This document shows, piece after piece, positions 2,114 through 14,198 of a stretch of 64,000 nt of DNA. Numbering within the stretch: the first letter of the stretch is position 1; each line of letters begins with the position of its first letter. The stretch is taken from contig NZ_CP070225.1 of assembly GCF_021631985.1 (NCBI RefSeq), positions 4,464,001-4,528,000 on the forward strand, given 5' to 3'. Under the pieces are notes generated by a model, which ran no database searches, was not told where the DNA came from, and saw only the letters and a program-made list of their open reading frames with translations. Source of the DNA: Sandaracinus amylolyticus. GTDB taxonomy: Bacteria > Myxococcota_A > Polyangia > Polyangiales > Sandaracinaceae. Position numbers and translations under genes: made by a program.

Positions 2114-2207
2114 GCCGCGGACAGTAGGAGCCCGCGAAGCGCCGTGTAAATCGTCCGAGACCGGGACGTCCGCGCGCAGAGACGTAGTCCGGCGAATCTG
2201 TCTTTTT

Positions 2208-2449
2208 GACGAGCTGGAACGGTCGTTCGAGGAGCTCGAACGGTCTTTCGACGCGAAATCCGGTCTTTGGACGCGAAATTCGGTCTTTGGACGAGGTGGA
2301 GCCGTCGTTCGACGAGCTGGACGGTCTTTCCACGAGAATTTCGGTCTCTGGACGAGGTGGAGCCGTCTTTCGACGAGCTGGACCGTGTTTGGACGAGCTG
2401 AACGGTCTTTCGATGAGCTGGGCGGTGTTGGACGAGCTGGACGGTCACC
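2208..2449. repeat. Array of twelve degenerate 19-21 bp tandem units
   Basis: Twelve head-to-tail units of 19-21 bp can be aligned. The commonest unit reads GACGAGCTGGACGGTCTTTC. Units start at 2208, 2229, 2250, 2270, 2290, 2311, 2331, 2351, 2372, 2392, 2412 and 2431. Variants (GACGCGAAATCCGGTCTTTG, GACGAGGTGGAGCCGTCTTTC) suggest old duplications that have drifted. There are no unique spacers, so it is not a CRISPR array, and the variable unit length argues against coding. It lies upstream of the leftward gene that ends at 1169. Confidence 0.75.
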
Positions 2450-2510
2450 GCGAAAAAACCCATCGCAGAGGCCGCAGAGCTCCTGTCATCGGCGACCCAC
2501 TTCACCGCAA

Positions 2511-3240
2511 GCGACTCCGCGCGGACTCGGCACATCACTCCCGAAAGAGACTCTGCGGGGACTCGAGATCACGCCCACCGCGAAGCAACCCCACCACGAG
2601 CGGCCCGAACGACGAGACCCAAACGAAACAGCAGAGCGACGTGCGCGCGAAGCGCGCACCTGGAGCGAGTGCACACCGAAGAGCGCAGGTCAGTACAACC
2701 AAGAGAGAGCGCGTCCTCGAGACCAACTCCACCACATGCGACTCCGCGGGGACTCGGCACATCGCGCTCGAAAGAGACTCTGCGGGGACTCGAGATCACG
2801 CCCACCGCGAAGCAACCCCACCACGAGCGGCCCGAACGTCGAGACCCAAACGAAACAGCAGAGCGACGTGCGCGCGAAGCGCGCACCTGGAGCGCAGGTC
2901 AGTACAACCAAAAGAGAGCGCGTCCTCGAGACCAACTCCACCACATGCGACTCCGCGGGGACTCGGCACATCGCGCTCGAAAGAGACTCTGCGGGGACTC
3001 GAGATCACGCCCACCGCGAAGCAACCCCACCACGAGCGGCCCGAACGACGAGACCCAAACGAAACAGCAGAGCGACGTGCGCGCGAAGCGCGCACCTGGA
3101 GCGAGTGCACACCGAAGAGCGCAGGTCAGTACAACCAAGAGAGAGCGCGTCCTCGAGACCAACTCCACCACATGCGACTCCGCGGGGACTCGGCACATCG
3201 CGCTCGAAAGAGACTCCGCGGGGACTCGAGATCACGCCAC
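2511..3240. repeat. Three tandem copies of a 227-bp (or 209-bp) repeat plus a partial fourth
   Basis: The landmark ACTCGAGATCACGCC recurs at 2561, 2788, 2997 and 3224, giving periods of 227, 209 and 227 bp. The copies are nearly identical. The short copy lacks 18 bp that are flanked by GAGCG in the long copies, as expected for slippage or recombination between short direct repeats. Each full copy carries a perfect hairpin, GTGCGCGCGAAGCGCGCAC, at 2641-2659, 2868-2886 and 3077-3095. A smaller motif, GACTCYGCGGGGACTCG, occurs twice per unit. The region is gene-poor and less GC-rich than its surroundings; the overlapping open frames are artefacts. Confidence 0.9.
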
Positions 3241-3279
3241 CGCAAGAGACTCGCAGGGACTCGACCCCTCGCTGGCGAG

Positions 3280-5220
3280 CTATTTCGCCCGCAGCGCCGC
3301 CACCGCGCCCTCCGGGTAGCTCCACAGGCGCGCTGCGAGCGCCAGTCTCGCGCGCAACTCCGCGCTGCCCTCCGCCGCTCCGCGCTCGAACACCTCGACG
3401 AGCAGTGCGTCGACCTCCGTGTCGCGCTTGGCGGAGAGCACATCGATCACCCGCACGAGCTCCTCGTCTCCGCTCGCCAGCATCCGCGCGACGGCCCGCC
3501 GCACGACCTGCACGTCGCGCGCGTCGATGCCTGCGCCCGAGGGAAGCGTCGACGCGATCAGCGAGAGCTCGTCGCCCGCGACGGCGTCGAGATCGAGCGC
3601 GTCACGCAGCGCTCGAAAGCGCTCCCACTCGGCCTCCGAGGGCGACTTGCCGCGGCGCCGGACCGGCTTGCCGTAGCGCGCCATCGCGACGTTCCGCAGA
3701 GGCTCGGCGACGCCGCCGATCGCGCGGATCACGCCGGCCGCCTGGAGCGCGTCGAGCGCGCCCGCGACGAGATCCGCACGCGCGGCGCGGAGCACGCCGG
3801 GCGTCGCGCGACGCGAGCGCAGCAGCGCGCTGCGCGTCGCGGGATCGCGGTACAGCGACGTCGCGAGCCGCGCCACCGGCGGGTCGGCCTCGGGGTCGTG
3901 CAGGTCGCCGAGCAGCCCGTCGATCGCGGCGATCTGCGCGGCGCGATCGGGCCCGGCGAGGTCGAGGCGCGCCCGCTCCCGGCGCTCCGCGCGCAGCGCG
4001 GGCGCGAAGCGCTGCTCGATCGCGTGCGGCATCGCCGCCCACGCGCCCGGCTTGCCGCGTCGGAGGGCCTCGACGATGAGCTCGCGGTGCGCCTCGAGCG
4101 CCGGGTGCGCCGGATCGATCGCGGCCTCGACGGGATGCGTGATCCGCCACGACGCGGGCTCGCGATCGGCGGCGCCGGCGAGCGCGCCGCCGAGCAGGAC
4201 GGCGAACGGCACCGAGGGGTCGGCGTCGCGCGGCCACACCGCGCCGAACGCGCGGGCGAGCGCGTACTGCACGTCGTCGTCGGAGCGCTCGTGCGCGGCA
4301 GCGCGCGCCGCGAGCAGCGCGTCGGCGAGCGCGACGCCGAGCTCGATGCGCCGCGCGCGGTCGATCGACGCCAGCGGATCGAGCTTACCGAGGATCATGA
4401 AGGTCTCGCCGCTCCACGCCCGCAGCGCGCGGATCACGGCGGCGGCCGAGCCGGGGCGGCTCGCGGCCGCGGTGAGCCACGTGAGCGTCGACTCGCGCGC
4501 ACCCGCGCCGGCGGCGAGCGTCGTCAGGAGCGCGATCGCGAGCGGGTCCGGCAACGCAGCCGCGGCCTCGACGACCTCGCCGGCGGGCTGCTTCGAGAGC
4601 GGGTACGGCTCGAGCTCGAGCGCGGCGCGGAGGCGCGCGAGCGCGGCGCGCGCGGGCTCGTCGAGCGCCGGCTCGGGATCGGCGTCGAGGATGCGGTGCC
4701 ACCACGGCGGCGTGGGCTGCAGGCGCGCGCGCGCGGCCCGGCGGACGGTGGGATGCGGATCCCCCGCGAGCTGATCCAGCGCGTCGCGCGCGTGCTCGAG
4801 CGAGAGGCCGAGCGCGAGCGCCTCGCGCACCGCCGCCCGAGTATCGCCGAGCGAGGCGCGCAGCTCGGCGGGGAGCTCGTGGGCGCGGGCCGCCGCGTGC
4901 CGCACCGCCCTGGCGATCGCGAGGCTGTAGCTGCGATCGTCCTCGTCGCCGCCGTGGTCCTCGGCGAGCTGGAGCATCCAGGCGAGCAGCGGGAGGGTCT
5001 CGACCTGCGCGCGCGACGCGCACGCGGCCGCGACGAAGCGCCAGAGCTCGGCCGCCGCCTCGCGGCGGGCGGCGCGCGAGAGACCGTCCGCGGTGCGGGC
5101 GTCGTACGCGCGGGCCTCGTCTTCCTCGTCGCCCAGCGCGCTGTGATCGATGAGGGGCCGGACCTCGCGCGCGAGCGCCCAGAGCTCGCGCCAGGTGAAG
5201 CGATCGTCGGGCGCGCTCAT
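3280..5220 (-). CDS. Helical-repeat (HEAT-like) protein, third gene of the Lon operon
   Basis: A 646-residue Ala/Leu/Arg-rich protein built of helical pairs, with phrases such as DPHPTVRRAARARL that are typical of HEAT/Armadillo-like repeats. No signal peptide, membrane span or catalytic motif is visible. The start is set by an ATGA overlap with the stop of the upstream gene; the open frame continues upstream, but that part is shadow of the other gene. It is clearly related to its upstream neighbour: both carry a DDRxxSLxIAxA segment followed about 70 residues later by an RRAAR/RAAAREAL helix and a W-H-(R/G)-(I/V) segment. A scaffold or adaptor role for the co-encoded Lon protease is inference only. 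Confidence 0.8.
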   Translation of the reverse strand: MSAPDDRFTWRELWALAREVRPLIDHSALGDEEDEARAYDARTADGLSRAARREAAAELWRFVAAACASRAQVETLPLLAWMLQLAEDHGGDEDDRSYSLAIARAVRHAAARAHELPAELRASLGDTRAAVREALALGLSLEHARDALDQLAGDPHPTVRRAARARLQPTPPWWHRILDADPEPALDEPARAALARLRAALELEPYPLSKQPAGEVVEAAAALPDPLAIALLTTLAAGAGARESTLTWLTAAASRPGSAAAVIRALRAWSGETFMILGKLDPLASIDRARRIELGVALADALLAARAAAHERSDDDVQYALARAFGAVWPRDADPSVPFAVLLGGALAGAADREPASWRITHPVEAAIDPAHPALEAHRELIVEALRRGKPGAWAAMPHAIEQRFAPALRAERRERARLDLAGPDRAAQIAAIDGLLGDLHDPEADPPVARLATSLYRDPATRSALLRSRRATPGVLRAARADLVAGALDALQAAGVIRAIGGVAEPLRNVAMARYGKPVRRRGKSPSEAEWERFRALRDALDLDAVAGDELSLIASTLPSGAGIDARDVQVVRRAVARMLASGDEELVRVIDVLSAKRDTEVDALLVEVFERGAAEGSAELRARLALAARLWSYPEGAVAALRAK

Positions 5221-7058
5221 CGTGCGCCCCCCTCGAGGTCGCGGCGTAGGTCCGCGAGGGCGTCGGCGGCGAGATCGCGGGCGGGGTACGAGGCCGAGGC
5301 CGCGAGGCGCTCGAGCACGGTGACCCACGGCGGGCTCGCGGCGAGGGCGGCGTTGTAGAGGCGGATCTCGAGCGGCGGCGCGGACGCGGGCGCGACCGCG
5401 GCGAAGAGGTGCTCGACCGCGGGATGGTCGTGCGCGACGACGCCCGTCCTCGCGAGCTCGACGAGCAGCGCGCCGAGGGTGGCGAGCGCGTCGGGCGAGG
5501 CCGGGTCGGAGAGGAGCGCGTCGAGGGCGTCGCGGGCGCGGGCGAGCTCCGCGGCGCTCGGAGGGGCGGAGCGCGCGTGCGCGGTGATCGCGCGCAGCAC
5601 GATCGCGATCTCGTCCCCCGCGAGGCGCCCTGCCGCGAGCTGCGCGCGCAGGGTGCGCATCACGACGCGGCGCAGCGGCTCGCAGTCGATCACGACGGCG
5701 CGGAGGCGCGGCGCGTCGAGCGCGCTCACGAGCAGCGCGCGCCCGGCCCTGCCGCGCACCCGCGCCATGCGCTGCAGCGCGAACGTGAGGGCGTCGGGAT
5801 CGTCGCTCAGCGCGAGCGCGCGCTCGGCGTAGGCGGTGACGCGCGGGTCCTCCGAGGCGAGCAGCGAGGTGCGCAGCGGGGTGGCGAGCAGCGACCACGC
5901 GCCGGGGAAGCCGGCCTCGAGCGCGGCGACCGCAGACTCGGCGAGCGGGCCGAGAGCGGTGCGCGCGGAGATCGCCGACGCCACCGCGCGGGTGAGCGGC
6001 GTGTGCGCGCGCGCGTCGGTGGCGGGGACCGATGCCGCGGCATCGAGCGGCGCGCCGAGGGCGAGCGCGACGAGCGGCCGGAGGTCGTCGACGAGGCTCG
6101 CGAGCGACGTGACGATGCGCTCGGCGACGTAGCGATCGGCCGAGCGCTGCTCGCCGAGCGCGGGCAGGAGCGTCTCGAGCGCGCGCGCGCGGACCGGCTC
6201 GGCACACTCGGCGAGCGCGCGGGGGATCAGCATCTCGAGCTGCTCGATGATCGCGTAGGGCCGCGCGTCGAGGACGCGGCCGATCTCGAGGCCGCCGGTC
6301 GCGCGCAGCCAGCGCACGCCCAGCGCATGGTCCCACGCGCGATCGCGACAGAAGAAGCGGGTGAGGATCGCCCCCGCGACGTCGTCGGGGAGCGCGCGCA
6401 TCGCGCGGCGAATCGCGCGCTGCGCCTCCTCGTGCTTCCACGGAGGCTCGACGAGCGCGGCGAGCGCGGCGTCGAGCGGCTTGCGGAGCCGGCGCGCGTC
6501 CTCCGCCGAGCGCGAAGAGAGCGGATCGGCGGGGAAGACGCCATGCCACGCGGGCGGTCCGTGGCCCCCGAGCGCCTCGCGCGCGGCGGCGCGCACGGTG
6601 TCGTCCTCGTCGCCGTGCAGGTCGTAGAGGAGCGCGCGCACGTCGGCGCTGCCGGCGGCGTGGGGCGCGAGGCCGCGCGCGATCGCGGCGCGCGCGGTGG
6701 GCGTGCGCTTGCCGACGAGCTTGCGCGCCTCGGGCAGCGCGCGCGGCCCCGCGAGCGTGACGAGCTGCTCGATCGCCTGCGCGATCGCGATCGAGAGCGA
6801 GCCGTTGCGGTCGTCGTAGCCTTCGGTGCGCCCGCGTGTCGCGCGGAGGTAGCGCAGCGCGAGCGGGTCTCCTTCGGCGCCGAGGATCGCCGCAGCGAGC
6901 GGGAGCGCGGTGGCGAGCGCGCCGTACTTCGCCTGGGCGTGCGCGCGCTCGGTGGTGGCGTCCACGAAGGTGTCGGAGGTGCGATCGGCCGGCGCATCGA
7001 GCGCGGCGATCGACGCGTCGGCGAGCCCGACGAGACGCTCTCGATCGATCCAGGTCAT
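5217..7058 (-). CDS. Helical-repeat (HEAT-like) protein, second gene of the Lon operon
   Basis: A 613-residue protein starting MTWIDRERLVG, whose ATG overlaps the lon stop by ATGA. It is almost wholly alpha-helical, with repeated R-A-A-x-E-A-L helices (GDEDDTVRAAAREALG about residues 140-160) like HEAT repeats. There is no export signal or enzyme motif. It shares order and motifs with the gene downstream, so the two look like a tandem duplication that has diverged strongly. Translation of all three operon genes appears coupled, which suggests fixed stoichiometry with the protease. The role is unknown. Confidence 0.8.
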   Translation of the reverse strand: MTWIDRERLVGLADASIAALDAPADRTSDTFVDATTERAHAQAKYGALATALPLAAAILGAEGDPLALRYLRATRGRTEGYDDRNGSLSIAIAQAIEQLVTLAGPRALPEARKLVGKRTPTARAAIARGLAPHAAGSADVRALLYDLHGDEDDTVRAAAREALGGHGPPAWHGVFPADPLSSRSAEDARRLRKPLDAALAALVEPPWKHEEAQRAIRRAMRALPDDVAGAILTRFFCRDRAWDHALGVRWLRATGGLEIGRVLDARPYAIIEQLEMLIPRALAECAEPVRARALETLLPALGEQRSADRYVAERIVTSLASLVDDLRPLVALALGAPLDAAASVPATDARAHTPLTRAVASAISARTALGPLAESAVAALEAGFPGAWSLLATPLRTSLLASEDPRVTAYAERALALSDDPDALTFALQRMARVRGRAGRALLVSALDAPRLRAVVIDCEPLRRVVMRTLRAQLAAGRLAGDEIAIVLRAITAHARSAPPSAAELARARDALDALLSDPASPDALATLGALLVELARTGVVAHDHPAVEHLFAAVAPASAPPLEIRLYNAALAASPPWVTVLERLAASASYPARDLAADALADLRRDLEGGAR

Positions 7059-9289
7059 GCGACGCTCGGCGGTGAGGGCTCGTCCCACGCGATCGCGGCG
7101 GCCTCGGCGAGGTCGCGCACGAAGAGGATCTCGATGCGCGCTTCGGCGGGGACGTCGGCGCGGTTGGCCTCGGGGACGATCACCGCGCGGAGCCCGGCGC
7201 GCTCGGCGGCGAGCACCTTCGCGCGCACGCCGCCGACCGCGAGCACCGCGCCGTGCAGCGTGATCTCGCCGGTCCACGCGACGTCACCGCGCACCGCGAG
7301 CCCGGTGATCGCGGAGCGGATCGCCAGATAGAGCGGCACGCCGGCGGAGGGGCCCTCCTTGCGCACGGCGCCCTCGGCGATGTGCACGTGGAGGTCGGCC
7401 ACGAGCGCGGCGTCGGGCGCGCCGATCGCGCTCGCCTCGGCGGCGATGCGCGAGAGCGCGGTGCGCGCGGACTCGCGCATGACCTCGCCCTGGAGGCCGG
7501 TGAGGTGGAGCTCGGGGCGCGCGCCGCGCGCAGGCGCGCGTAGCACCTCGATCGGCAGCACTGCGCCGCCTCCGTCGCCGCCGACCGAGAGGCCGTGCGC
7601 GGAGCCGATCGGCAGGCGCGTCGCGGGGGGGACGCGGCGGTGGCGAGGCGGCCCGTGGACCGTGGTGATCTCGGCGATGGTGATCGGCGCGTCGCTCGCG
7701 GCGGCGCCGCGCGCCAGCTCGACGGCGCGGGCGCGGTGGACGGCGGAGAGCACGCGCTCGAGCTCGCGCACGCCCGGCTCGCGGGTGTAGCCCTCGACGA
7801 TGGCGGCGAGCGTCTCGGCGTCGGCGGTGAGCGGCGCGGCGAGGCCGTGCGAGCGCGCGAGGCGCGGCAGCACGTGGCGCGATGCGATGCGCACCTTCTC
7901 GCCCAGCGTGTAGCCGTCGAGCTCGACGACCTCGAGGCGATCGCGGAGCGCGGGGAGGATGCGATCGACGTCGTTCGCGGTGGCGATGAAGAGGACCTTC
8001 GAGAGGTCGTAGGGCGCGCCGAGGAAGTTGTCGGAGAAGGCGTGGTGCTGCTCGGGATCGAGCACCTCGAGGAGCGCGGCGGCCGGGCTGCGGAAGCTCT
8101 CCTGGCCGATCTTGTCGAGCTCGTCGAGAAGCAGGACGGGATCGGTGCGCCCCGCCTGCCGCATGCCCTGCACGATGCGCCCCGGCGACGCCGCGTGGAA
8201 CGACTGGCGGTGGCCGCGGATCTCGCACTCGTCGTGCACGCCGCCGAGCGGCACGCGCACCAGCGGGCGACCGAGGCCCTCGGCGATGCTCCGCGCGATC
8301 GTCGTCTTGCCGACGCCCGGCGGGCCGGCGAGGCACAGCACCAGGCCTCGCGAGCTGCCGCCGAGCTTGCGCACCGCGAGGTGCTCGAGGACGCGGCGCT
8401 TGGGGCGCGCGAGGCCTTCGTGCTCGGCGTCGAGGCGGCGCGTCACCTCGTCGAGATCGATCGTCGCGGGCGGCGGCTCGCCCCAAGGGAGGTCGGCGAG
8501 CAGCGTCAGGTGCGCGAGGTACGTGTGGTAGTCGTGCGCGTTGCGCGGCATGTCGGCGAGCAGCGCGAGGCGCTCACGGGCGACGGCGCGCGCAGCCTCG
8601 GGGAGCGGGAGGCGCTCGAGCTTCTGGGCGACGACCTCGAGCGGTCCACCCAGCTTGCGACCCGCGAGGGGCTCCGCGATGCCGAGGGTGCGGGCGATCT
8701 CGGTGGCGATCGGCAGGATGCGCGCGCGCTCGGCGTGGCTCGTGTCGCCCGCGGCGAGGCGCGCGGCGAGCGACTCGAGCACCGTCGCGGCGTCGGGCGC
8801 GACGGCGCTCGGGGTGTCGGGCGCCGGGGGATCACCGTCCGCGACGGAGCGGGCGAGCGCACCGTGGGTCGCGAGCGTGCGCTCGATCGCGCGGAGCGCC
8901 GGCACCGACTCCGCGCTCGATCGCTCGCGCGCGAGCGACAGGACGCGGGCAGCGACACGCGCGGCGTCGACCTCGTCGAGCAGCTCGAGGCGCGCCGCGA
9001 AGGGCTCGGCCGTCTCGACGTCCACCACGCGCGCACGGCGAAGGCCGCGGAGGCGCACCCCACCGCGCGCGAGCGAGACGACCTCGGCCAGCACGCCCAC
9101 GCGCCCCGTCACGAACGAAGGGAGCTGCAGCGCGAAGTCGAGCGGGAGCGCGACGACTCGCGCAGCTTTGCGCTTGCGCGCGCGCTTGAGGGACTCGGGC
9201 TCGCAGCTGGCGTCGTCGAGCGCGAGCTCCTCACCGGGCAAGAGGACATCGGAGAGCAACCCGAGGACGATTGTTCGTTCGTCGTTCAT
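7055..9289 (-). CDS. lon: ATP-dependent Lon-family protease
   Basis: A 744-residue Lon protease of the soluble type: a LON-N-like domain (about 1-200), a helical linker, an AAA+ module and a C-terminal serine protease domain. Walker A GPPGVGKT is at 322-329, and Walker B is PVLLLDELDKI. The Ser-Lys dyad is Ser648 in GPSAG and Lys691 in VRAKVLAAERAG. The N-domain begins at MNDERTIV; the upstream extension of the open frame is unlikely because it would cross a short gap and the neighbouring gene. Lon degrades misfolded and regulatory proteins. Here it heads an operon with two helical-repeat proteins, unlike the usual clpX-lon context. This suggests a specialised paralogue rather than, or in addition to, the housekeeping enzyme. 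Confidence 0.93.
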   Translation of the reverse strand: MNDERTIVLGLLSDVLLPGEELALDDASCEPESLKRARKRKAARVVALPLDFALQLPSFVTGRVGVLAEVVSLARGGVRLRGLRRARVVDVETAEPFAARLELLDEVDAARVAARVLSLARERSSAESVPALRAIERTLATHGALARSVADGDPPAPDTPSAVAPDAATVLESLAARLAAGDTSHAERARILPIATEIARTLGIAEPLAGRKLGGPLEVVAQKLERLPLPEAARAVARERLALLADMPRNAHDYHTYLAHLTLLADLPWGEPPPATIDLDEVTRRLDAEHEGLARPKRRVLEHLAVRKLGGSSRGLVLCLAGPPGVGKTTIARSIAEGLGRPLVRVPLGGVHDECEIRGHRQSFHAASPGRIVQGMRQAGRTDPVLLLDELDKIGQESFRSPAAALLEVLDPEQHHAFSDNFLGAPYDLSKVLFIATANDVDRILPALRDRLEVVELDGYTLGEKVRIASRHVLPRLARSHGLAAPLTADAETLAAIVEGYTREPGVRELERVLSAVHRARAVELARGAAASDAPITIAEITTVHGPPRHRRVPPATRLPIGSAHGLSVGGDGGGAVLPIEVLRAPARGARPELHLTGLQGEVMRESARTALSRIAAEASAIGAPDAALVADLHVHIAEGAVRKEGPSAGVPLYLAIRSAITGLAVRGDVAWTGEITLHGAVLAVGGVRAKVLAAERAGLRAVIVPEANRADVPAEARIEILFVRDLAEAAAIAWDEPSPPSVA

Positions 9290-9339
9290 CCGGGCCAGGA
9301 TAGCCGAGGACGGAACGGGCCGAGGTGCTCCGAACCGCG

Positions 9340-10292: not shown

Positions 10293-13200
10293 GTGAGGGA
10301 CCCTGCGCTGTCGTCGGCTCGTTTCGAGCTGCTGCGTGAGGTCGGCAGCGGGGGCATGGGCGTCGTCTTCGAGGCGCTCGATCGCGAGACGAACGCGATC
10401 GTCGCGCTGAAGATGCTCAAGACGCGCGACGCGCACCTGCTCTATCGCTTCAAGCAGGAGTTCCGCGCGCTCGCCGACGTGCAGCACCCGAACATCCTGC
10501 GCTTCGGGGAGCTCCATCACGAAGGCGATCAGTGGTTCTTCACGATGGAGCTGGTGCGAGGGGTCGATCTCCTCGCGTACGTGCGGCACGGAGCGAGCGC
10601 GTCCAGCCCGCTCGACGAGAAGACGCGCGACGCGTCGCCCGCCGGCCGACGACGCCGCGCGCGCGAGATCGAGACCGAGGACGACGCCACGCTCCACGAC
10701 GAGCCACGCGAGCACGTCGCCGACGAGCCGAGCCCCATCGCGTGCGAGGTCGGCTACGACGAGGCGCGGCTGCGGTCCACGCTGAGGCAGCTCGCGAGCG
10801 CGATCGACGCACTGCACCGACGCGGTCGACTGCATCGCGACGTCAAGCCATCGAACGTGCTGGTGCGCGACGACGGACACGTCGTGTTGCTCGACTTCGG
10901 TCTGGTCGAGCGCTTCGGCACCACGGTCGAGCGCCACGTCGAGAAGAGCGGCGAGCGCGCGATCGTCGGGACACCTCACTTCATCGCGCCCGAGGTGGTC
11001 GACGACGACGTCGGCCCGGAGGCGGACTGGTACGCGTTCGGCGTGCTGCTGTTCAAGGCGCTCACCGGGACGTTGCCGTTCCGCGGGCACCCGCTCGTCG
11101 TGATGCGCGAGAAGCGCGAGCGCGCCGCGCCCGCGCCGAGCGATCTGGTCCCCGGAGCGCCGCCCGATCTCGATCGACTGTGCCGTGCGCTCCTCGAGCG
11201 CGATCCCGCGGTGCGTCCGTGCGGCGACGACGTGCTCCGCGCGCTCGGCGCCGAGCCTCCCGCCGACGATCTCGTCGCGTCCGAGCCCGACGGCGCCGCG
11301 ATGCTCGAGGTGCCCGCCGCGTTCGTCGGAAGGCGCCGCGAGCTCGCGACGCTCGCCGACGCGTTCGTGCGCGTCGCATCGAGTGGGCGCGAGCTGGTGG
11401 TGGTGCGCGGCGAGCCGGGCGTCGGCAAGAGCACGCTCGTGCGTGCGTTCCTCGAGCAGCACGTCGCGCCGGATCGCGACGCGCTGGTGCTCGCGGGCCG
11501 CTGCTACGAGCAGGAGTCGGTCCCGTTCAAGGCGTTCGACGCGATCATCGACGCGCTGAGCGCGCACATCGCCGCGCTTCCGATCGCCGAGGCGCGCGCG
11601 CTGCTCGCGGGAGGAGCGCAGTTCCTCGCGATGATGTTCCCCGTGCTCCGGCGCGCACCCGCCGTCGCGGAGATGGTCACTCCGGGCAGCGCGCTGCGGA
11701 ACGTGTCGCTCATGCGCGATCTCGCGTTCCGCGAGCTCAAGGACGTGCTCGGAGCGCTCTCCGAGCGCGCGCGCCTCGTAGTGTTCGTCGACGATCTGCA
11801 GTGGGCCGACCGCGACAGCCTCGCGCTCCTCGAGGCGCTCTTCGCGCAGCCGGGCGCGCCTCGCGCGCTCTTCGTCGCGACGATGCGCGCGGGCAGCGCC
11901 GAGATGCAGGCGCGCCTCGACGCGCTGTCGCCGCGCACGCTCGATCTCGGTGGGCTCTCGCACGAGGAGTCGAAGGCGCTCTGGAACCTCCTGTGGATCG
12001 CGAACGGTGGGCCGCACGCCGGGCTCGCCCGACGCGACGCGGCGTCGTTCCTCGACGAGGCCGGCGGACATCCACTCTTCCTCTCGGAGCTCGTGCGCTT
12101 CGCGCGGAGGCCGCAGCGCGGCGCCACCTCGCGCGCGCGCCTGCAGGACGTGATCTGGACGCGCATCGCGGAGCTCGACGAGCCCGCGCGTCGGTTCATG
12201 GAGATGGTCGCGCTCGCGGGCGCGCCCTTCCCGTTCCAGCTGATCGCGCGCGCGGCGGGGCTCGACGTGAGCCAGAGCGCGATCCTGATCGGCGCGCTCC
12301 GCACCGCGCAGATGATCCGCGTCAGCCGTCACGGCGAGGATCGTCTGGTCGAGCCCTATCACGACCGAATTCGCGAGGCGATCCGCCGGCACTTCGACGA
12401 CGGCGGCGAGGCGATGGCGGCGCGGCTGCGCCACCTGCACCTGAGCCTCGGTCTCGAGCTCGTCGCGCACACGTCGAGCGCGGCGCTGCCCTCGGTGGTC
12501 TTCGCGATCGTGCAGCACCTGCACCAGGCGGGAGACCTCGTGTCGTCGCGCGACGCGCGGCGGCGGTTCGCGGAGCTGTGTCTCGTCGCGGGACGTCAGG
12601 CGAAGCAGACCACCGCGTATCGCGCGGCGCTCGAGTACCTCGAGCGCGCGACCGTGCTGATCGCAGGGCTCGGCGATCCGTGGACGACGGAGCACGCGCT
12701 CGCGTGCTCCGTCTGGTGGGAGCGCATGGAGTCGGCGTACCTCGCGGGCGAGATCGACCTCGCGAAGCGCCTCTTCGCGGAGCTCCTCCAGCGGCTCGCC
12801 GACCCTGCGGAGCGCGCGCGTCTCTACGCATCGCGCATCGCGCTGGAGACCGGGCACGGCCGCAGCGTCGAGGCGATCGCGACCGCACGCGAGGCGCTGC
12901 GGAGCTTCGGTCAATCGCTGCCGGCGAACGCGAGCACGGCGTCGGTGCTGCTCGAGTACGCCGCGGTGCGGTGGGCGGTCGGGCGCCGCTCGGCCGAGAA
13001 GCTCGCAGCGCTTCCCGAGCTCGAGGACGTCCGCGCACGATGCGCGATCGAGATCCTCGTCGCGATGGTGCCCGCAGCGTTCTTCGTGTCGACGGATCTC
13101 CTCGTGGTCGTGAGCCTGCGCATCGCGCAGCTCTCGCTGCACCACGGCGTGATGGACGCGTCGGCGTACGGCTTCGCGCTCTACGGAGCGGTGCTCTCGG

Positions 13201-14198
13201 GCGCGTTCGGAGATCACGCGAACGCGCACGCGTTCGGGCGCCTCTCGCTGGTGCTCCAGGAGCGCTTCCGCAGCGAGCGCTTCGCCTGCAAGCTGCTCTT
13301 CGTCAACGGCACGTACCTCACGCCGTGGGTCGAGCCGTTCGCGGCCGCGAAGGCCCAGCTGCGCGACGCGGTGTCGGTCGGCACGCGATACGGAGACACC
13401 GCGTACGAGGCGTACTCGGCGGGCACGCTCTCGGTGATCACCTACTGCGACGCAGCGCACCTCGGCGAGCTGCGCGAGACCGCAGAGGCGTGTCGAGCCA
13501 TCGCGGTGCGCCGTCGCGACGTGGACATGGCGGCGCTGGCCTCGACGCACGCGCGGTACGCAGCGGCGATGCGGGGACCGGACGGCGATGCGACGACCCT
13601 CGCCGCCGAGGACTCGGACGACGCGACGTTCCGCGCGTCGTTGAGCGAGCGGAAGACGCCGGTGGCCATCTTCTACTATCACCTGCTCGGCGCTCAGCTC
13701 GCGTATCTCCACGACGACGACGCGCGCGCGAGCGCGCTGCTCGCGGAGTGCGATCGTCACGTCGGCGCGGTGTTCTCGGTCCCGACCTCGGTCGAGCTCG
13801 AGGCGTGGCGCGTGCTCGTCGGTGCGCGCTCACATCGGAGCGCGGGCGCGCTGGAGCGCGCGCAGATCGCGTGGAGAGCGCGAGGAAGCCTCGCGAAGCT
13901 CGCTCGATGGGCGCAGGTCAATCCGCAGAGCTTCGAGCCGCTCTACCTCGTCGCGCTGGCCGAGCACGCGCGGGTGCGCGGAGCGAGCGACGCCGTCGCG
14001 CACTTCGAGCAGGCGGTCGAGCGCACGCGTGCCCATCGACGAGGCAAGTGGGAAGCGCTGGCGCTCGAGCTCCTCTGGCGCTTCCACGCAGAGCGTGGCG
14101 ATCACGCGATCGAGCAGCTCCGCGAGGCGCGCGACGCATACGCGCGCTGGGGCGCCGAGCGCCGCGCCGCGGAGCTCTCGCAGCGACTCGCGCGCTGA
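10293..14198 (+). CDS. PknK-like Ser/Thr protein kinase fused to AAA ATPase and long helical sensor region
   Basis: A 1301-residue protein. The N-terminal Hanks kinase has the P-loop GSGGMG at 18-23, Lys40 in ALKML, His181-Arg-Asp183 (HRDVKPSNVLV) and Asp201-Phe-Gly, so it should be active. A charged insertion of about 60 residues lies between the ATP-lobe strand and the catalytic loop. An AAA_16-type NTPase follows, with P-loop GEPGVGKS around 373-380 and Walker B FVDDLQWAD near 505. The last 600 residues are helical, TPR-like. This is the architecture of PknK and MalT/STAND-like signal ATPases that many myxobacteria have in large numbers. No membrane span, so cytoplasmic. Likely targets or inducers are not shown. 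It is transcribed alone from the promoter at 10203. Confidence 0.9.
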   Translation: MRDPALSSARFELLREVGSGGMGVVFEALDRETNAIVALKMLKTRDAHLLYRFKQEFRALADVQHPNILRFGELHHEGDQWFFTMELVRGVDLLAYVRHGASASSPLDEKTRDASPAGRRRRAREIETEDDATLHDEPREHVADEPSPIACEVGYDEARLRSTLRQLASAIDALHRRGRLHRDVKPSNVLVRDDGHVVLLDFGLVERFGTTVERHVEKSGERAIVGTPHFIAPEVVDDDVGPEADWYAFGVLLFKALTGTLPFRGHPLVVMREKRERAAPAPSDLVPGAPPDLDRLCRALLERDPAVRPCGDDVLRALGAEPPADDLVASEPDGAAMLEVPAAFVGRRRELATLADAFVRVASSGRELVVVRGEPGVGKSTLVRAFLEQHVAPDRDALVLAGRCYEQESVPFKAFDAIIDALSAHIAALPIAEARALLAGGAQFLAMMFPVLRRAPAVAEMVTPGSALRNVSLMRDLAFRELKDVLGALSERARLVVFVDDLQWADRDSLALLEALFAQPGAPRALFVATMRAGSAEMQARLDALSPRTLDLGGLSHEESKALWNLLWIANGGPHAGLARRDAASFLDEAGGHPLFLSELVRFARRPQRGATSRARLQDVIWTRIAELDEPARRFMEMVALAGAPFPFQLIARAAGLDVSQSAILIGALRTAQMIRVSRHGEDRLVEPYHDRIREAIRRHFDDGGEAMAARLRHLHLSLGLELVAHTSSAALPSVVFAIVQHLHQAGDLVSSRDARRRFAELCLVAGRQAKQTTAYRAALEYLERATVLIAGLGDPWTTEHALACSVWWERMESAYLAGEIDLAKRLFAELLQRLADPAERARLYASRIALETGHGRSVEAIATAREALRSFGQSLPANASTASVLLEYAAVRWAVGRRSAEKLAALPELEDVRARCAIEILVAMVPAAFFVSTDLLVVVSLRIAQLSLHHGVMDASAYGFALYGAVLSGAFGDHANAHAFGRLSLVLQERFRSERFACKLLFVNGTYLTPWVEPFAAAKAQLRDAVSVGTRYGDTAYEAYSAGTLSVITYCDAAHLGELRETAEACRAIAVRRRDVDMAALASTHARYAAAMRGPDGDATTLAAEDSDDATFRASLSERKTPVAIFYYHLLGAQLAYLHDDDARASALLAECDRHVGAVFSVPTSVELEAWRVLVGARSHRSAGALERAQIAWRARGSLAKLARWAQVNPQSFEPLYLVALAEHARVRGASDAVAHFEQAVERTRAHRRGKWEALALELLWRFHAERGDHAIEQLREARDAYARWGAERRAAELSQRLAR

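Follow-up and report, generated by a model that had tools for sequence, protein, structure and literature searches.

A divergent LonA-type protease and the predicted alpha-solenoid proteins encoded beside it in Sandaracinus amylolyticus and other Myxococcota

Sandaracinus amylolyticus has several genes for Lon-type proteases, and one of them runs directly into two genes for large proteins predicted to be helical. This raises the question of whether this Lon and its neighbours are parts of one system or have only come to lie side by side. The gene is on the minus strand of the 64,000-nucleotide stretch of the genome that was analysed, called the window here; it starts with an ATG at 9289, occupies 7055..9289 and encodes a divergent LonA-type AAA+ protease of 744 aa. 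On the same strand it is followed by H1 (5217..7058, ATG at 7058), which encodes a predicted alpha-solenoid protein of 613 aa, and by its paralogue H2 (3280..5220, ATG at 5220), which encodes one of 646 aa. At both junctions a stop and a start codon overlap in the minus-strand tetranucleotide ATGA (Lon/H1, 7055..7058; H1/H2, 5217..5220), and the sizes and overlaps that the earlier note had reported are all present in the sequence. The three frames are free of stops and have a third-position GC of about 0.94, a value typical of real genes here, which indicates that the frames are real. Four-nucleotide gene overlaps are common in bacteria, and for this reason the overlaps alone are weak evidence.

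In its domain order the protein is a LonA (peptidase family S16; TIGR00763), with a recognisable N-terminal part, linker, AAA+ domain and Ser-Lys protease domain. The ATPase and protease motifs and domains are intact, and the N-terminal region is diverged in sequence and shortened. Walker A (GPPGVGKT, residues 322-329; 8303..8326, minus strand) and the codons of catalytic Ser648 (7346..7348, minus strand) and Lys691 (7217..7219, minus strand) fall in invariant columns of an alignment of the window Lon, one other member of its clade and 31 other Lons. Lon_C (156.9 bits), AAA and Lon_lid score above the Pfam cut-offs, and the Pfam Lon N-domain model has no match in the protein. Against TIGR00763, the equivalog model of endopeptidase La, the window Lon reaches 497.5 bits, below the curated cut-off of 608.05, as does the Lon of the L042 locus with 576.2 bits. 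Positions 62-303 of a clade profile align with E. coli Lon (6u5z) at E 5e-9. In a predicted model of the window Lon (pLDDT 79) the N-lobe is beta-rich, the helical part at about residues 108-214 is of low confidence, and the AAA+ and protease domains match LonA structures, LonA proteins being the best structural matches. Changes specific to the clade occur at otherwise near-invariant sites and include G332A, G400R, D401S, W569V and E690A; the catalytic residues are kept. These altered sites, the score under the TIGR00763 cut-off and the absence of an N-domain match, together with the dedicated partners, are what distinguish the clade from LonA.

In a tree of 108 other Lons and the Lons of the eight loci described below, the eight form one clade (support 100, stem 1.18) and the window Lon is placed apart from the four other Lons of its own genome; the tree was made by a quick method in which long branches and unusual composition are flagged and the inner branching order is unsure. 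A Lon_C search of the genome gave these four further places at 270-321 bits. The earlier note had been wary of a Lon that was the sole housekeeping copy; with four more strong Lons encoded in the genome, the one in the window is not the housekeeping Lon. Of these four, that at 3801060-3802643 has a nearly identical counterpart in the congener G148; two weak Lon_C matches of about 30 bits lie at G000:C1:5229205-5229486 and 1160968-1161186.

The partners had been labelled HEAT-like, and their sequences hint at this: H1 reaches 25.4 bits with the Pfam model HEAT_2, under the cut-off of 27.7, and H2 matches no Pfam repeat model. Further support for the label comes from structure and homology. The predicted model of H1 is all-helical, at low confidence (mean pLDDT 63, from an alignment of four sequences), and almost every structure that it matches is a solenoid of HEAT/ARM type (AP2, importins, CRM1, beta-catenin and CAND1); these matches have E above 1e-3, Z up to 10.6 and large rmsd and so indicate fold class only. 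Both proteins are homologous to the partner proteins at other loci of the same Lon clade, and one of these relatives, H1 of L044, passes the HEAT model (24.1 bits against a cut-off of 23.5). Beyond such generic HEAT matches, no Pfam, NCBIfam or PADLOC model was found for the partners. The solenoid profile also has a weak match to proteasome Rpn2/PSMD1 over one repeat stretch (E 0.0005), and the arrangement would be alike in its logic, with a scaffold of helical repeats next to an AAA+ protease. However, the similarity is one of HEAT-type repeats generally and the PP2A scaffold scores equally, so a function shared with Rpn2 or PP2A is not accepted. A single-sequence search with H1 in 141 genomes returned only H1 itself and two weak matches, the same kind of search within the taxonomic family gave nothing further, and a scan of genome contigs with H1 gave no match. 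Because the single-sequence search recovered so little, profiles were needed to find relatives of the solenoids.

Lon and solenoid are genomically associated across the clade: all eight clade Lons found in Myxococcota adjoin a homologous solenoid gene. The first four loci came from the best full-length matches of the window Lon in the order together with a weak match of H1, and solenoid genes lie beside Lon at each. A solenoid profile searched in 379 genomes of the phylum added G021, where the neighbour is a Lon of the same type, and a Lon-N profile (A6), built from the N-terminal part and linker of the clade Lons and searched in 184 genomes of the order, yielded G426 and G480 as well; no additional clade member came from the orders to which G108 and G021 belong. 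The Lon-N profile gives 272-482 bits for members of the clade and less than 80 for all other Lons. When this profile and the solenoid profile were searched separately in the 379 genomes, they picked out an identical set of six (strong hits in the case of the solenoid), and the flanks of about 100 other Lon loci, taken at 1.5-7 kb, contained no match to the solenoid profile. The identical genome sets and the pairing at eight of eight loci bear out the description of the partners as dedicated. A search with a fragment of the Lon pore region found mostly ordinary Lons and the G108 locus; none of the others matches the Lon-N profile, and the GGVHDE motif is therefore not specific to the clade.

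The arrangement of the genes is more variable than their pairing. The order Lon-H1-H2 is found in the window and in G108, H1-Lon-H2 in G165, Lon-H in three genomes (G206, G226 and G021) and H-Lon in two (G426 and G480), with partners of 375-720 aa. The exact triad for which the earlier note proposed a synteny search thus recurs once only, in G108; the remaining loci have a single partner or one that precedes Lon, and what does not vary is therefore Lon with at least one solenoid. That the order changes while the adjacency is kept argues for a functional tie and not for frozen synteny. Coding sequences overlap at four of the eight loci, by ATGA at both junctions in the window, by TTGA and ATGA in G108, by 8 nt and by GTGA in G165, and by 8 nt in G480, where only the end of H lies on a short contig, its frame is interrupted and the assignment is by a weak colinear match (blast E 1e-4). 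At the remaining four loci Lon and solenoid are 26-63 nt apart (29 nt in G206 and in G226, 26 nt in G021 and about 63 nt in G426). The suggestion that overlaps hold the products in a fixed ratio therefore suits half of the loci but does not describe a general feature.

Apart from protein kinases near some loci, no shared neighbourhood beyond Lon and the solenoid was found at the loci. Genes for Ser/Thr protein kinases or their homologues lie within a few kb at 10293-14198 of the window, 13001-17308 of L042 and 2182-4242 of L044; the loci concerned are those of the window, G206/G226 and G108, and chance may be the explanation, such kinases being frequent in these genomes. Upstream of the module of G206, in sequence that fails to align with the sister genomes, is a gene (L042, 3328-4779) for an AAA_15 ATPase with matches to the defence models NsnB and AriA. 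A 314-aa gene at 1169-2113 of the window has its best DNA match in G148 (79% identity) elsewhere on the G148 chromosome, and the corresponding place in G148 holds a different frame of 297 aa.

Analysis of genomes without the module proved informative about its limits. Relative to the congener G148, the window has an extra piece at 3261..9336 that contains Lon, H1, H2 and no other gene. In G148 the repeat-rich stretch on the H2 side and the gene that precedes Lon meet at 5160/5184 of the reversed L237, 24 bp apart; the edges of the extra piece are good to tens of bases, the left one because of repeats. Within genus g143 the place of Lon-H in G226 corresponds to 21-82 bp in G474, G475, G216 and G225, and the Lon-H of G206 lies one to two genes beyond this place, at a site with 10 bp in G474, so that four of the six species of the genus cleanly lack it. 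The module has been gained or lost as one block, and no transposase gene was seen inside it. The conserved pairing and the empty sites together place the association above chance. The intergenic stretch downstream of H2, at 2200-3260 of the window, is rich in repeats, some of them short and tandem-like and others direct repeats about 200-300 nt long and up to 97% identical; G148 has related repeats at the same place, in both orientations. GC is 0.769 for 3280-9289 against 0.710 for the whole window, a difference that is smaller or absent at other loci.

The solenoid evolves faster than Lon in the one close pair compared, L042 (G206) and L043 (G226), in which dN/dS is 0.53 for the solenoid, 0.29 for Lon and 0.18 for a neighbouring gene; the most variable stretches of Lon between these two genomes are the N-terminus and about residues 511-600. 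The solenoids of G206, G226, G021, G426 and G165 (H1) end in a flexible-looking stretch, a Trp and then acidic residues, with the tails GGDWMDEDE, GGDWMDEEDE, GQWMDEDD, GVWEDDDDDE and GWGDDD at L042, L043, L070, L198 and L041, respectively. A frame in G480 ends in a similar Trp-acidic tail, and both window partners and G108 have none. LarA acts on Lon through its last five residues, and its tail depends on bulky valines and a histidine (PMC10665427). The likeness of the acidic Trp tail to it is a loose analogy, as the chemistry differs.

How the two kinds of protein might work together can be outlined from these comparisons. We give an even chance to the proposal that this Lon is a specialised derivative of LonA and that its solenoid partners either bring it substrates or gate it. 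An ATP-dependent protease derived from LonA, and long split from the housekeeping Lons, would work with one or two dedicated alpha-solenoids. The solenoid would bind the Lon hexamer, most likely through the diverged N-terminal region of Lon, and could provide the substrate choice or gating that an ordinary Lon has from its own N-domain. The Lon motor would then be freed from the constraints on a housekeeping N-domain, and faster evolution than in the motor would be expected of a receptor whose targets vary. The acidic Trp tail, by analogy with LarA, could be a docking peptide at the five of eight loci where it is present, and in the window H1 and H2, as paralogues, may together make up a recruiter of two parts that is produced in step with Lon.

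The strongest rival, because the distribution is patchy and block-like, is that the pair forms a conflict or defence module in which a foreign protein, for example a component of a phage, is sensed by the solenoid, which passes it to, or unleashes, the Lon-type protease; this we regard as rather unlikely. It would account for presence that is patchy even within genera, for gain or loss as a block and for a fast-evolving solenoid. Lon-family proteases do occur in defence, and the models of BREX BrxL and of CARF-Lon effectors match the window Lon weakly through the Lon-type protease domain. However, these Lon matches are to generic domains only, no PADLOC model matches the window solenoids, and neither BREX genes nor a CARF domain nor any other listed defence part occurs in the module. 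The ATPase gene of NsnB/AriA type near the G206 module is the one supportive context, the neighbours at the other checked loci being ordinary or unassigned.

It is also possible, though a good deal less probable, that the solenoids are mainly clients, that is, regulators or toxic proteins kept low by Lon, the pair resembling a protein and its dedicated eliminator. Solenoids of about this size are usually scaffolds, which speaks against such a role, and the position of Lon as the first gene, seen at five of the eight loci, is not suggestive of an elimination pair, yet is compatible with one. The linkage of Lon and solenoid is strict, as clients of this kind would have it, and the C-terminal tails could be degrons at five loci, LarA itself being degraded by Lon through its C-terminus (PMC10665427), but neither the window nor G108 has the tail. 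Accidental adjacency or hitch-hiking of a spare Lon with unrelated neighbours is strongly disfavoured and can be rejected, for although several Lon copies are usual in this order, Lon and solenoid co-occur at eight of eight loci despite changing order, their genome sets are identical and the empty sites delimit exactly Lon and the solenoids.

Novelty here lies in the constant solenoid partner, the protease itself being a LonA variant. SmiA, HspQ and LarA, regulators to which the solenoids can be compared, are, in the literature covered, small proteins that act singly on an ordinary Lon, whereas here solenoids of several hundred residues are encoded beside their own Lon. Known Lon adaptors and dedicated regulators are few (PMC10665427); SmiA (PMC9204741) and LarA, which acts through its C-terminus (PMC10665427), are dedicated partners, and with HspQ they direct or stimulate Lon (PMC9204741, PMC10665427), as the solenoids may do. 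Among the known adaptors and regulators none was found that is a large repeat protein encoded next to a Lon of its own, and a literature search of partial coverage found no published description of a Lon-HEAT operon. The earlier view of an undescribed system agrees with this, as nothing described in that search or in the Pfam, NCBIfam and PADLOC models matches.

Beyond the proposed recruitment or gating by the solenoids, a wider reading, unlikely in our estimation, is that the module is a transferable proteolytic machine in which fast-evolving solenoids serve as exchangeable receptors for their own Lon, by a logic like that of proteasome scaffolds and possibly for conflict with phages or rivals. 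Should it be the partners that select the substrates, the module would be a natural, portable protease with separate recognition units. It may also partly explain why large myxobacterial genomes have several Lons.
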